This document shows positions 2,560-10,643 of a stretch of 10,643 nt of DNA, in pieces (within the stretch, counting starts at the first letter, position 1; every line of letters starts with the position of its first letter). The stretch lies in assembly GCA_017395725.1 (NCBI GenBank), contig JAFQOB010000160.1, positions 1 through 10,643 on the forward strand, read 5' to 3'. Under the pieces are notes generated by a model, which saw only the letters and a program-made list of their open reading frames with translations, did not search any database and was not told the DNA's origin. A program made the translations under genes and the position numbers. The DNA is from Clostridia bacterium. GTDB taxonomy: Bacteria; Bacillota_A; Clostridia; Oscillospirales; CAG-272.

Positions 2560-2637
2560 GGTGGGTGTAGCTCAGTTGGTTAGAGCGTCAGGTTGTGGCC
2601 CTGAAGGCCGTGGGTTCGAGTCCCATTACTCACCCCA
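2560..2637 (+). tRNA. tRNA-His, anticodon GUG
   Basis: Acceptor GTGGGTG (2561-2567) pairs with TACTCAC (2627-2633) with two G-T pairs. The extra G-1 at 2560 faces discriminator C at 2634, the identity signature of tRNA-His. Anticodon stem TCAGG/CCTGA encloses TTGTGGC, with anticodon GTG at 2595-2597. D arm GCTC/GAGC, T loop TTCGAGT, encoded CCA at 2635-2637. It is probably co-transcribed with tRNA-Arg, since no clear promoter lies in the spacer and the terminator follows. Confidence 0.95.
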
Positions 2638-2640
2638 GAG

Positions 2641-2670
2641 AAAAAAGCACCGAAATAGCAGTGCTTTTTT
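2641..2670 (+). terminator. Rho-independent terminator of the tRNA unit
   Basis: AAAAAAGCAC (2641-2650) and GTGCTTTTTT (2661-2670) form a 10-bp stem with a 10-base loop, and the stem ends in six T. It starts three bases after the tRNA-His CCA. The matching A-run makes it potentially bidirectional. Confidence 0.85.
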
Positions 2671-2672
2671 CA

Positions 2673-2842
2673 ATGAAATTCGCCTTACGGCGAGTGAAAT
2701 AGCTTCGCTATGAAATACGCTGTCGCGTATGAAATAGTTGCTTCGCAAATATTAAATTGCGAATTTTCATTTCACATTCGGTGGAACACCGAATATTTCA
2801 TAATCCGTTAGGATTATTTCATATTGCGTAGCAATATTTCAT
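2673..2842. repeat. Mirrored hairpin array D1 (ATGAAAT x4 then ATTTCAT x4)
   Basis: Heptamers ATGAAAT occur at 2673, 2694 (as GTGAAAT), 2710 and 2729. Reverse-complement ATTTCAT heptamers occur at 2769 (as ATTTCAC), 2795, 2816 and 2836. Between them are short palindromes of differing sequence, such as TCGCC/GGCGA, ACGC/GCGT, an 8-bp ATTCGGTG/CACCGAAT, AATCC/GGATT and ATTGC/GCAAT. The whole 170-base block is a large inverted repeat made of small hairpins. It begins two bases after the tRNA terminator stem and its last base overlaps the serA stop codon. A second array of the same design lies at 10382-10548. The hairpin nearest serA could help end serC-serA transcription. Confidence 0.85.
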
Positions 2843-3753
2843 TAATTCAAAACACACCATCTATTAATAATCCCCGCGATTTCCTCACCGATTCTGCTTT
2901 GCGCCTCGGCGGTTTGTCCGCCTATATGCGGAGTAACCGATACTCTCGGGTGACTGCATAAAGCCATATTAGCAGTAGGCTCATTTTCAAATACATCAAG
3001 TGCCGCACCCGCAATTTCCCCATTGTTTAATGCATTTAAAAGAGCATTTTCCGATACCACACCGCCTCTTGATGTATTTATAATAAATGCAGTAGGCTTC
3101 ATAAGCTCAAGCTCTGCTTTGTCGATTATCGGTCTGTTATCTGCCGGCATAGGAATATGCAAGGATACGTAATCGGATATTTTCAATAGCTTTTCTAACG
3201 GAAGATAGGTATAATTACCTATCTCCTTTTTTTCACCGCTCCGGCAGGTATAGACAACCTTTAACCCCAGAGCCTCGGCACGTTTTGCAACCTCTTGCGC
3301 TATTCTTCCCATACCGATAAGTCCAAGAGTCTTCCCGCTGATTTCACTACCCTCATACTGCTTTTTGTTCCATAGTCCTTGTCTCATTTCGGCGTTTGCT
3401 ATGCCGATAAAACGAGAAAGGGCGAAAATATGACCAATAGCAAGCTCGGCAACAGAGGCAGAGCTTGCATTGGGAGTATTGCGAACAGCAATGCCCTTGC
3501 TTTCGGCATAGTCAACATCAATATTGTCAACGCCGACACCGCCGCGAATAATAAGCTTTAGCTTTCCTGTAACAGCTTCGTCAATATGGCTTGCCCTTAT
3601 CTTTGTTTTTGAACGCACCACTACACAGTCATATTCTTTTAAAGCACTTCCGAGCTTATCGGATTCATAAAACTGCCCGACTACCTCGTGGCCATCTGCT
3701 CTCAGTTTTTCTATAGAAAAACTGTCGATTCCGTCTGTAACTAATATTCGCAT
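2842..3753 (-). CDS. serA: D-3-phosphoglycerate dehydrogenase, short form
   Basis: Cytosolic NAD-dependent enzyme oxidising 3-phosphoglycerate to 3-phosphohydroxypyruvate, the first step of serine synthesis. The 303 residues cover only the substrate- and nucleotide-binding domains of the D-2-hydroxyacid dehydrogenase family; the C-terminal ACT domain that gives serine feedback in longer SerA proteins is absent. The nucleotide loop is GLIGMGRIA (144-152), with Ala at the usual third Gly. The catalytic triad is R229 in NTSRGG, E258 in DVFENEP and H276 in TPHIGG. GGVGVDNID at 71-79 is also typical. The start at 3753 is supported by AGGAAG a few bases upstream, inside the 15-base gap after serC. 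Adjacency to serC favours this function over other hydroxyacid dehydrogenases. Array D1 touches its stop codon. Confidence 0.93.
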   Translation of the reverse strand: MRILVTDGIDSFSIEKLRADGHEVVGQFYESDKLGSALKEYDCVVVRSKTKIRASHIDEAVTGKLKLIIRGGVGVDNIDVDYAESKGIAVRNTPNASSASVAELAIGHIFALSRFIGIANAEMRQGLWNKKQYEGSEISGKTLGLIGMGRIAQEVAKRAEALGLKVVYTCRSGEKKEIGNYTYLPLEKLLKISDYVSLHIPMPADNRPIIDKAELELMKPTAFIINTSRGGVVSENALLNALNNGEIAGAALDVFENEPTANMALCSHPRVSVTPHIGGQTAEAQSRIGEEIAGIINRWCVLN

Positions 3754-6282: not shown

Positions 6283-6372
6283 TTGTAGGGCGGGGGTTTA
6301 TCTCCCGCCGCTTTTTTAGTTATTGTTTTTTCATTAACGGCGGCAGCAAGCCACCGCCCTACGATATAGGGA
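6283..6372. repeat. Family E inverted-repeat element, copy E2
   Basis: GTAGGGCGG at the left (6285-6293) is complementary to CCGCCCTAC at the right (6354-6362). Each side is also a local hairpin: GGCGGGGG...CTCCCGCC on the left, and GGCGG-CAGCAAG-CCACCGCC on the right. The right half, including the trailing ATAGGGAT, resembles 585-620. It is a small mobile-looking palindromic unit between the regulator and scfA. Confidence 0.6.
6289..6317 (+). terminator. Rho-independent terminator after the LysR gene
   Basis: GGCGGG (6289-6294), extended by G-T and G-C pairs, pairs with CCCGCC (6304-6309) around TTTAT. A T6 run lies at 6312-6317. It starts 43 bases after the LysR stop and insulates scfA. 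It is the left arm of repeat E2, so the repeat appears to supply the terminator. Confidence 0.65.
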
Positions 6373-6516: not shown

Positions 6517-6666
6517 ATGAAACACATCGAAACTATCGAAACACGTAATCTTTGCGAAAGTGCAAAGAACGGCGGTTGCGGCGAATGCCAGACATCTTGC
6601 CAGTCTGCTTGCAAAACAAGCTGCGGTATTGCTAACCAGCAGTGCGAAAACAAGGAAAGCAAGTAA
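6517..6666 (+). CDS. scfA: SCIFF-family six-cysteine ranthipeptide precursor
   Basis: A 49-residue ribosomally made peptide, the substrate of the adjacent radical SAM maturase. The leader MKHIETIETRNL matches the conserved MKHI... start of the SCIFF family. The core has CGECQTSCQSACKTSC, then GIANQQCE, giving cysteines at 21, 24, 28, 32, 36 and 43. A seventh Cys at 13 lies in the leader. The family is known for Cys-to-Thr thioether bonds; from memory the mapped acceptor is the Thr just after CKTSC. Here that position is Gly37, while Thr26 and Thr34 are kept. GGAGG lies 9 bases before the ATG. The gene is preceded by its own promoter and followed by a hairpin, then scfB. The mature product's biological role is unknown for the family in general. 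Confidence 0.95.
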   Translation: MKHIETIETRNLCESAKNGGCGECQTSCQSACKTSCGIANQQCENKESK

Positions 6667-6691
6667 GTTTTATTTAGAAACTTTCCGATAG

Positions 6692-6720
6692 AATGCCGCC
6701 TATTTTTTGGCGGCATTTTT
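6692..6720 (+). terminator. Intercistronic hairpin between scfA and scfB
   Basis: AATGCCGCC (6692-6700) and GGCGGCATT (6709-6717) form a 9-bp stem with a T-rich loop, followed by T to 6720. It has the form of a rho-independent terminator but lies inside a probable two-gene unit. Partial termination would give more precursor than maturase transcript. No separate scfB promoter is evident in the short gap. Confidence 0.7.
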
Positions 6721-6747
6721 ACTGTAATATTAAGGAGTACATAGATA

Positions 6748-8127
6748 ATGATACATCAGTATAAGCTTAACGGCTATAACATAGTTCTCGACACCTGCTC
6801 GGGCGGTATCCACGTTGTCGACGACGTGGCATACGATATTATTTCCCTTTTTGAAGGCGAAAACAAGGAAGATATTATTGCAAAAATGTCTGAAAAATAC
6901 GTGGGCAAAGACGAGATAACACCAAAAGATATTGAAGAATGTTACGAACAGGTCGAGCAATTAAAGGATATGGGTAAGCTGTTTGCCCCCGATACCTTTG
7001 AAAATATGGCGGGTAAGCTGAAGGAAAAGACGTCGGGCGTGGTTAAGGCACTCTGTTTGCATATCGCCCATACCTGTAACCTCAACTGCGAATATTGCTT
7101 TGCAAGTCAGGGTAAATATCACGGAGAAAGAGCCGTTATGTCTTATGAAGTGGGTAAACAAGCCCTCGACTTCCTTGTTGCCAACTCGGGTACAAGAAGA
7201 AACCTTGAGGTTGACTTTTTTGGCGGCGAACCGTTGATGAACTTTGAGGTTGTAAAACAACTGGTAGCTTATGCGAGAAGTATTGAAAAAGAACATAATA
7301 AGAACTTCCGCTTTACTTTGACTACTAACGGTCTTCTTATTGATGATGACGTTATTGAATGGGCAAACCGTGAGTGCAGTAACGTTGTTCTCAGCCTCGA
7401 CGGCAGAAAAGAGATTCACGACAGATACCGCGTTGACTACGCAGGTAACGGAAGCTGGGAAAGAATCGTCCCCCTCTTTCAGAAGTTTGTTAAGGCACGT
7501 GAGGGAAAGAATTACTATATGCGAGGCACCTTTACCCACGCTAACCCCGACTTTTTAGAGGATATAAAGCAGATGCTTGAGCTGGGCTTTACGGAGCTTA
7601 GTATGGAGCCCGTTGTTTGTGCACCCGGCGATAAATCGGAGCTTACAGCAGAAGATATGCCTATTGTGTTCAAGCAGTACGAGGACTTGGCGAAGCTTAT
7701 GCTCGAAAGAGATAAGGAAGGCAGACCATTTACGTTCTATCATTATATGATAGATTTGACAGGCGGTCCTTGTATTTATAAGCGTATTTCCGGCTGCGGC
7801 TCGGGTACGGAGTATATGGCTGTTACACCTTGGGGCGACCTATACCCTTGCCACCAGTTTGTCGGCGAAGAATCTTATAAGCTGGGCGATATATGGAACG
7901 GAGTTACAAATAAAGAGAAACAGGACGAATTTGCGTGCTGTAACGTGTATGCACGTGAAGAATGTCGCGACTGCTGGGCAAAGCTATATTGCTCGGGCGG
8001 CTGTGCTGCAAACGCATACCACTCCACAGGCTCGGTTAAGGGCGTGTATAAAGCAGGCTGCGAACTGTTTAAGAAGCGTATGGAATGTGCGATTATGGTT
8101 GAGATTGCGAGAAAATTGAATAAGTAA
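6748..8127 (+). CDS. scfB: SCIFF peptide maturase, radical SAM/SPASM thioether-forming enzyme
   Basis: Cytosolic iron-sulfur enzyme expected to abstract hydrogen from the ScfA core and form Cys thioether cross-links. The 459 residues fit the family. An N-terminal peptide-recognition region spans about residues 1-90. The radical SAM motif is CNLNCEYC with cysteines at 110, 114 and 117, followed by FFGGEP (157-162) for SAM binding. A C-terminal SPASM domain holds auxiliary-cluster cysteines: C350 in GCGSGTEYM, C368 in GDLYPC, C406, C409, C415 and C419 in CRDCWAKLYCSGGC, and C438. AAGGAG (6732-6737) lies 10 bases before the ATG. No transporter or leader protease gene is next to it, which is usual for SCIFF loci as far as I recall. 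A repeat hairpin follows 14 bases past the stop. Confidence 0.96.
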   Translation: MIHQYKLNGYNIVLDTCSGGIHVVDDVAYDIISLFEGENKEDIIAKMSEKYVGKDEITPKDIEECYEQVEQLKDMGKLFAPDTFENMAGKLKEKTSGVVKALCLHIAHTCNLNCEYCFASQGKYHGERAVMSYEVGKQALDFLVANSGTRRNLEVDFFGGEPLMNFEVVKQLVAYARSIEKEHNKNFRFTLTTNGLLIDDDVIEWANRECSNVVLSLDGRKEIHDRYRVDYAGNGSWERIVPLFQKFVKAREGKNYYMRGTFTHANPDFLEDIKQMLELGFTELSMEPVVCAPGDKSELTAEDMPIVFKQYEDLAKLMLERDKEGRPFTFYHYMIDLTGGPCIYKRISGCGSGTEYMAVTPWGDLYPCHQFVGEESYKLGDIWNGVTNKEKQDEFACCNVYAREECRDCWAKLYCSGGCAANAYHSTGSVKGVYKAGCELFKKRMECAIMVEIARKLNK

Positions 8128-10325: not shown

Positions 10326-10376
10326 GGTCTACAAAAAATATTTTCATCATTTTTGCGTATAAATTTAAACTCTTAC
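10326..10376. repeat. Imperfect direct repeat, left copy
   Basis: This block, with ATATTTTC and TTTTGCGTAT, matches 10591-10643 at about 40 of 51 aligned positions by eye, with one 2-base gap. Both copies directly follow a 13-bp terminator-like palindrome (10280-10320 and 10551-10582), so the duplicated unit is palindrome plus block. No gene is supported in it. Confidence 0.55.
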
Positions 10377-10381
10377 AGAAA

Positions 10382-10548
10382 ATGAAATCCTTGCTGACGC
10401 AAGGATGAAATCAGCTAACGCTGATGAAATCTTCGGCTTTGCCTCAGATGAAATTAAATCCACCCATCCGCCGTCGAGGCGGATTTCATCCCCGCAGGGG
10501 ATTTCATCATTGAAGATGATTTCACCCACCCCAAAGGGTTGATTTAGT
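10382..10548. repeat. Mirrored hairpin array D2 (ATGAAAT x4 then ATTTCAT x4)
   Basis: ATGAAAT occurs at 10382, 10405, 10424 and 10448. ATTTCAT occurs at 10483, 10501 and 10519 (as ATTTCAC), with a decayed ATTTAGT at 10542. The spacers are palindromes unrelated in sequence to those of D1: CCTTGC/GCAAGG, CAGC/GCTG, ATCCGCC/GGCGGAT, CCCC/GGGG and CCC/GGG. The heptamer, the switch of orientation in the middle, the longest spacer at the centre and the total length (167 versus 170) all match array D1. Confidence 0.85.
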
Positions 10549-10550
10549 TG

Positions 10551-10582
10551 AAAAAACGACGTGTCAAATCACGTCGTTTTTT
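10551..10582. terminator. Bidirectional rho-independent terminator-like palindrome
   Basis: AAAAAACGACGTG (10551-10563) pairs perfectly with CACGTCGTTTTTT (10570-10582) around TCAAAT. The T6 run serves the plus strand and the A6 run serves the minus strand. The right side may end a minus-strand gene entering from beyond the window, but only about 24 open codons are visible there. Confidence 0.7.
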
Positions 10583-10590
10583 CTGTGTAA

Positions 10591-10643
10591 GGACTATAAA
10601 AAAGATATTTTCGGCCGTTTTGCGTATGACTTCGAACTCTCAC
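10591..10643. repeat. Imperfect direct repeat, right copy, reaching the window edge
   Basis: It pairs with the block at 10326-10376; the sequence TTTTGCGTAT is identical in both. On the minus strand a 24-codon open stretch runs from the edge to a stop in the palindrome. The equivalent stretch of the left copy is broken by several stops, so it is not evidence of a gene. Confidence 0.5.

Follow-up and report, generated by a model that had tools for sequence, protein, structure and literature searches.

D1 and D2, two mirrored arrays of short words and hairpins, are probably copies, without a gene of their own, of a dispersed DNA element that occurs in Oscillospiraceae-type gut bacteria and is linked to a protein gene of the IVP family (Pfam 23S_rRNA_IVP, PF05635); we put the probability of this reading at roughly 60%. 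Both lie in a 10,643-nt stretch of DNA from a Clostridia bacterium, which was analysed as a whole and is called the window below. The original prediction had described two blocks of one design, with about four constant ATGAAAT heptamers followed by about four ATTTCAT heptamers and palindromes between them. The mirrored design is real in both blocks, which span 2673–2842 (D1, four forward and four reverse words) and 10382–10525 (D2, four forward and three reverse words plus an end hairpin). The count of about four plus four holds for D1, but D2 has three reverse words and a hairpin at its outer end. Most words have the described sequence, except that one forward word of D1 is GTGAAAT and that the innermost reverse word of D1 and the outermost of D2 are ATTTCAC. 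D1 does end on the stop codon of serA, as its last word ends at 2842, the final base of that codon. The terminator stems beside both arrays, the tRNA-His gene before D1 and the IVP partner gene are additions to the earlier description.

The forward words of D1 start at 2673, 2694, 2710 and 2729 and its reverse words at 2769, 2795, 2816 and 2836, and the corresponding starts in D2 are 10382, 10405, 10424 and 10448, and 10483, 10501 and 10519 (other features are listed in Table 1). Eight words fall in the densest 170 nt of the window, compared with a maximum of four in 200 first-order Markov shuffles. When folded as single-stranded DNA, D1 and D2 gave z scores of -7.06 and -4.60, respectively, and none of 200 shuffles was equally stable. 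The AAATTCGC stem of D1 was also found by the array detector, and the end hairpin of D2 has an alternative pairing with the centre of that array (10455–10465 with 10536–10546, read from the sequence). All four array halves were matched by the Rfam model Gut-1 (RF01706) in cmscan, two of them at or above the 50-bit cut-off. No rRNA match was found in the window by Rfam search, and D1 sits between tRNA-His and a protein gene. No IVP-like ORF was present to the right of D1 or D2 among the ORFs read in the window, and no tRNA was found beside D2 in the 60 nt that remain to the window end, where a conserved block is located instead.

Table 1. Features of the two arrays and their surroundings in the window
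Feature	Position	Strand	Basis or remark
tRNA-His (gtg), encoded CCCA end, directly before D1	2561..2637	+	ARAGORN, Rfam
Left end unit of D1: symmetric intrinsic terminator GAAAAAAGCAC...GTGCTTTTTTC	2640..2671	+	Stem search; similar boundary in relatives
D1 left Gut-1 match	2671-2740	+	63.8 bits, above cut-off
D1 left half: ATGAAAT, GTGAAAT, ATGAAAT, ATGAAAT and three hairpins	2673..2735	+	Word search, Gut-1 match
D1 centre: final hairpin of the left side plus GCGAATTT (2759-2766), a possible pairing partner of AAATTCGC in the first hairpin (2676-2683)	2736..2768	+	Pairing read from the sequence
D1 right half: four reverse words and three hairpins	2769..2842	-	Word search, Gut-1 match
D1 right Gut-1 match	2790-2853	-	44.5 bits, below cut-off
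ORF named serA in the original prediction; stop overlaps last base of D1	2842..3753	-	ORF list
Conserved block, found in relatives after the right end of D2's array subfamily	10330..10376	-	47-nt repeat
D2 block-side Gut-1 match	10380-10459	+	42.3 bits, below cut-off
D2 half adjoining the conserved block: four ATGAAAT	10382..10454	+	Word search, Gut-1 match
D2 terminator-side Gut-1 match	10478-10550	-	57.5 bits, above cut-off
D2 half on the terminator side: three reverse words with an end hairpin	10483..10546	-	Word search, Gut-1 match
D2 symmetric terminator GAAAAAACGACGTG...CACGTCGTTTTTTC	10550..10583	-	Inverted repeat and stem search
Conserved block, second copy (77% to the first), at the edge of the window	10597..10643	-	Repeat search

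Such arrays are not unique to the window, and the spacer palindromes of their relatives keep pairing beyond chance. The closest serA relatives of the window (the gene name is that of the original prediction) are two Oscillospiraceae MAGs with 76% identity, one of which is genome G001. In the genus of G001, Gut-1 matches were detected in 76 of 136 genomes (E ≤0.001; 65 above the cut-off), with a maximum of 27 in one genome, and in G001 itself they occurred on both strands at 8 of 12 places. An order-wide draw gave matches in 105 of 245 genomes, and among 14 named control genomes E. coli alone had a match, which was below the cut-off. The four closest serA loci contained neither arrays of the D1 word near serA nor a tRNA; the neighborhood of D1 is not common to serA relatives.

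From forty fetched regions and other loci, 84 arrays were detected, and removal of eight loci (chance, judged by eye) and one duplicate left 75 arrays at 65 loci. Their usual order is a terminator stem, a first hairpin, units of word and hairpin, a centre and then reverse units, and it is common that the centre can pair with an arm of the first hairpin; one locus (L298) has a half array only. Most arrays use one type of word, and the words differ among arrays: (A/G)TGAAAT, GTGAAGTT, GTGATATT with GTTATATT, TGATAT, ATGATG and others. The detector demands the same hexamer in inverted orientation, so the agreement of words between the halves of these 75 arrays is given by construction; however, it was also seen by eye in Gut-1 hits picked without the hexamer rule.

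The left end of the arrays prefers terminators and tRNA 3' ends. When arrays were oriented by their internal pairing (five could not be), a T-run of at least five was present on the left in 46 of 70 and on the right in 11 of 70. A tRNA gene within 130 nt pointed at the array in 37 of 75 cases, and in none was such a gene found only pointing away. With hand-set orientation, in which L153, L465, the arrays of the window and the five ambiguous arrays were oriented by the T-run and one tRNA was counted twice at tandem arrays, the left neighbor was a tRNA toward the array in 39 cases and away in 0, and an ORF in 20 and 9, respectively; 7 had no neighbor. The T-run counts and the 37 of 75 above do not depend on this hand-set orientation. 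In a weaker order-wide sample (25 arrays from 22 of 29 loci with top Gut-1 scores, five of them within 150 nt of the end of the stretch), 9 of 25 had a tRNA toward the array and none away, and an IVP gene was adjacent in 1 of 25.

A search pattern for the left end, which itself demands a T-run, CA and AAAT, had 103 matches; 56 of these have a stem, including two chance matches in viral contigs (L449 and L453). Forty-four of the 56 stemmed left ends directly follow CCA, and the stem starts with GAAAA or a near variant in most. A G and an A-run after CCA were found in 26 of 36 array-bearing tRNAs versus 7 of 60 array-free tRNAs with a T-run, and at six of those seven an array start is in fact visible in the sequence. 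Because this feature occurs mostly at array-bearing tRNAs, the terminator seems, as judged from sequence, to be part of the element itself. D1 after tRNA-His conforms to the CCA–terminator–array layout of the relatives.

One tRNA-Lys site could be compared among 22 genomes. The array was present in two, in one of which it lies some 180 nt farther along, behind a second terminator, and absent in 20; three array-free genomes (L497, L499 and L503) have an IVP gene at this site. Neither the tRNA-Lys site in the 22 genomes nor the serA relatives yielded an exact empty site or a target duplication. The earlier interpretation is right in part. A non-autonomous dispersed element that favors gene ends is supported: there are many copies in relatives, the left end coincides with a terminator and frequently with the 3' end of a tRNA, and the array is absent at 20 of 22 tRNA-Lys sites. 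Mobility of the element is what we infer.

Fuller copies carry a gene. At 14 loci, which account for 18 of 75 array rows, an IVP gene of 115–155 codons was located to the right of the array and pointed away from it. The four of these more than 60 nt from the array are farther members of tandem arrays, and 57 of 75 rows had no IVP gene within 600 nt, some having short right flanks. The assignment to PF05635 was confirmed for five of five proteins, which came with five word families, and array-side IVP matched one solved protein by sequence, 2rld (five chains). Members of PF05635 are described, in the parts of the literature cited here, as pentamers of four-helix bundles that resemble Avd (PMC4990558, PMC10053308). 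In the genus, 94 of 136 genomes have an IVP gene; it was present in 70 and absent in 6 genomes with Gut-1, versus 24 and 36 without Gut-1 (odds ratio 17.5, kinship ignored).

The IVP set contained 121 hits and 84 distinct proteins. A mirrored array within 160 nt upstream was seen for 20 of 24 IVP genes in loci chosen by arrays or other queries and for 8 of 60 in loci chosen by IVP score; the latter were the best-scoring rows in order, with three skipped, and over-represent high-scoring, mostly non-array IVPs. The IVP start is 18–109 nt from the last array word. An exact TATAAT precedes the start of IVP in 17 of 29 cases, compared with 6.9% of shuffles, and of 23 promoters with a good -10, only 7 have a -35 hexamer that overlaps the words.

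A tree was built from 83 of the IVP proteins (one shorter than 100 aa was dropped), and all 27 array-linked rows fell within one clade of 30 (support 99/93). The other three members are L085, which was counted as array-free by the detector and has an array visible by eye, L499 and L503. Array labels required 9 changes on this tree versus 26 when shuffled, and none of 200 shuffles was as low. Words, grouped into families by hand for this test, mostly occupied single branches: TGAAAT (13 rows), TGATGC (4 rows) and AGCTAA (3 rows) required one change each, whereas GTGAAGT words (3 rows) required three, no better than shuffles. Neighboring sequences are inherited together, so the linkage to one clade shows a unit and not recognition. 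The word is probably the DNA site of IVP; word and IVP branch may, however, co-occur merely as inherited neighbors.

The sister clade of 53 IVPs has no arrays, and its genes mostly lie between inverted tandem heptamers. Upstream repeats of period 7 or 14, and of no other period, were detected at 40 of 56 non-array IVPs but in none of 1120 shuffles and none of 54 stretches downstream, and an inverted heptamer copy was present at the gene end in 42 of 56. In a second scoring, two-sided repeats were found at 38 of 62 IVPs of the genus set, inverted in 38 of 38; at 7 of 28 in other Bacillota, five of them inverted; and at 5 of 30 hits (fragments included) from five genomes of other groups, all five inverted, with 18 of the hits having none. 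Control ORFs had two-sided repeats in 0 of 843 and 1 of 237 cases and one-sided repeats in 46 and 6, respectively. Tandem heptamers also occur just before the S23 ORF in the 23S intervening sequence of Coxiella, and such elements are called selfish in the part of that study cited here (PMC4990558). Taken together, the repeats in the genus, in other Bacillota and other groups and in Coxiella give the association of 7-nt words with IVP genes the look of a widespread trait.

The pairing of the spacers was predicted to be kept while their sequence differs, and this was confirmed. A total of 372 spacers from the 75 arrays, the two of the window included, yielded 300 distinct sequences, 78.7% of which form a stem of at least 4 bp, compared with 9.7% of shuffles; these 300 have 123 distinct stem arms. 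Read on the strand that has the word as ATTTCA, the stem is closed by C-G in 217 of 236 cases and 90 of 136 triloops are GNA (another 21 are AAA, which is not GNA). Of 85 tetraloops, 62 are GNNA, and 36 of these 62 are GNRA, the rule for RNA tetraloops. The complementary TNC-type loop occurred twice. GNA or GNNA loops on G-C pairs are described as extraordinarily stable DNA minihairpins in the part of PMC4686876 that we cite. Since the loops follow this GNA/GNNA rule and no more than 36 of 62 GNNA loops are GNRA, the loop types favor, as far as sequence can tell, DNA over RNA as the working form.

A structured RNA had been among the possibilities named at the outset, and Rfam does hold one in Gut-1: its model scores both halves, and in the portion of PMC2864571 cited here Gut-1 is listed among the motifs likeliest to be expressed as non-coding RNAs and is confined to the human gut. 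UGAAAU words and hairpins are common to Gut-1 and each array half. If Gut-1 were a true structured non-coding RNA, the mirrored half would be a second RNA gene or a by-product. However, the RNA family has 77 model positions, which in the window and its relatives correspond to half of a mirrored array, and here there are several word families, a terminator and sometimes an IVP gene. The matches lie on both strands in mirrored pairs, a layout absent from the Gut-1 description in the cited portion of PMC2864571. In addition, the array comes after a terminator and, in copies with IVP, before a promoter box; the strand on which the loops obey the DNA rule is the one opposite to that of the Gut-1 model; among the 62 GNNA loops, 26 depart from GNRA; and word changes coincide in both halves, as judged by eye. 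We therefore consider the RNA explanation unlikely. It is somewhat less likely that the arrays are fixed 3' elements of tRNA operons that serve the host as terminator and as a barrier to supercoiling or read-through, with IVP as a hitch-hiker at a hot spot. The preference for tRNAs and terminators would fit, as would the IVP gene at the tRNA-Lys site of the three array-free genomes, and BIMEs after busy genes are known to bind gyrase. Yet the array is missing from 20 of 22 orthologous tRNA-Lys sites, and the distance of 18–109 nt between IVP start and last word and the single clade of linked IVPs also argue against this.

The least probable of these explanations, which we regard as very doubtful, is a system of the REPIN kind mobilized by a RAYT (Y1) transposase. 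Of 136 genomes of the genus, 76 have Y1 genes, some of them RAYT-like, and short inverted repeats served by one protein follow the logic of REPINs; dispersed inverted palindromic repeats with a dedicated protein gene are indeed common to the two. But the arrays lack a GTAG tag, their hairpin sequences vary and their protein is not a Y1 transposase. Only 2 of 20 fetched RAYT-like regions hold an array, both with other words, and many RAYT-like genes have GTAGGG...CCCTAC-type repeats beside them (by eye, uncounted). Two genomes with 26 Gut-1 matches each (G078 and G107) gave no Y1 hit, and the association of Y1 with Gut-1 is weaker, with an odds ratio of 2.5. RAYT/Y1 as the mobilizer is thus disfavored.

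Other known systems are similar in part. The 23S rRNA intervening sequences with an S23/IVP ORF share a PF05635-type protein and, as seen in relatives, heptamer repeats next to the ORF, but those are inserted in 23S rRNA, whereas the present copies follow tRNA genes or terminators and most are gene-less; in D1 and D2 hairpins separate the 7-nt words, and an ORF is missing. A likeness to Avd of diversity-generating retroelements comes from the protein, as PF05635 is said to resemble Avd in the cited part of PMC10053308. MITEs are marked by terminal inverted repeats and a target site duplication; D1 and D2 have mirrored words, and the site comparisons above gave no exact empty site. The comparison with reversed CRISPR logic gained no support, because here a 7-nt word and palindromic spacers stand against identical repeats of 20–50 nt and non-palindromic spacers. 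Searches for REP and gut repeats in the open-access literature, by title, returned no paper on Gut-1-like arrays.

In the IVP-linked DNA element that we prefer, the unit consists of a symmetric terminator hairpin and a mirrored array of 7-nt words with minihairpins, joined in fuller copies by the gene for the four-helix-bundle IVP. An IVP oligomer may bind the word as its DNA site, and the mirrored array would then act as both inverted ends of the element, placed side by side. Its minihairpins could form in single-stranded DNA, in a cruciform or during replication, and aid binding or copying; binding near the IVP promoter might also limit IVP expression. No catalytic domain is known in IVP, so a host enzyme would cut and join. 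Gene-less copies such as D1 and D2 would use IVP from elsewhere or may be relics.

A wider proposal, which we offer tentatively and hold to be possible rather than probable, is that IVP (S23-type) proteins are word-specific DNA binders of mobile elements found across phyla, the ends of which are inverted arrays of 7-nt words, either in tandem or spaced by minihairpins. Rather than an RNA, Gut-1 would then be the end array of a single branch that homes to tRNA 3' ends with its own terminator. This would provide a testable role for a widespread protein family without known function, would reinterpret as DNA elements what Rfam lists as an RNA family and would define a repeat–protein pair in which the 7-base word is constant and the hairpins are variable. 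If the word is the site of IVP, recognition of heptamers would be a common thread in the puzzle of this family, from rRNA intervening sequences to the kinship with Avd.

A viral origin of the arrays was considered and rejected: among the matches listed, most matches of two open patterns in viral contigs had no mirrored array. Two specific patterns gave 5 and 4 stretches in viral contigs. Arrays or half arrays were recognized by eye in six of these contigs (L280, L298, L311, L462, L464 and L465), and the detector added L228. Neighboring ORFs were read for L465 and L280; the left neighbor in L465 is an ORF of 522 aa, which resembles a serine recombinase.

The conserved block, GTAAGAGTTCGAATTCATACGCAAAACTGCCGAAAATATCTTTTTTGTAGCCCATAGACA in the form seen in L726 and, with small changes, in others, follows one array subfamily, and its first copy in the window recurs at nine further places in the loci of relatives. 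It often precedes the next terminator (window, L731, L751 and L106), and in L731 arrays of two different words alternate with it. By the layout of L731, the second copy in the window may be followed by a further tandem array beyond the window.

Additional repeats were noted. Between tRNA-Arg and tRNA-His (2487–2551), the window has tandem TTACTTACTTC units with a period of 11, partly 7, which resemble the heptamer ends beside IVP genes. At locus L148 (1177–1323), two TTGACAA heptamer arrays in inverted orientation are separated by some 90 nt and lack a gene; they are likely a solo copy that belongs to the other IVP class. GTAG-type REP-like palindromes, gtagggcgggggtttatctcccgccgc ... ggcggcagcaagccaccgccctac, are present at 6283–6363 and 586–610 of the window and are like those beside RAYT-like genes of relatives. 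Copies of a dispersed intergenic repeat with arms CTACTTTCTT...AAGAAAGTAGG were seen by eye near 700, 8180, 8590, 10000 and 10120. Finally, a gene for a small cysteine-rich peptide precedes a radical-SAM-like ORF (6517–8127), a pair that presumably resembles the SCIFF system.
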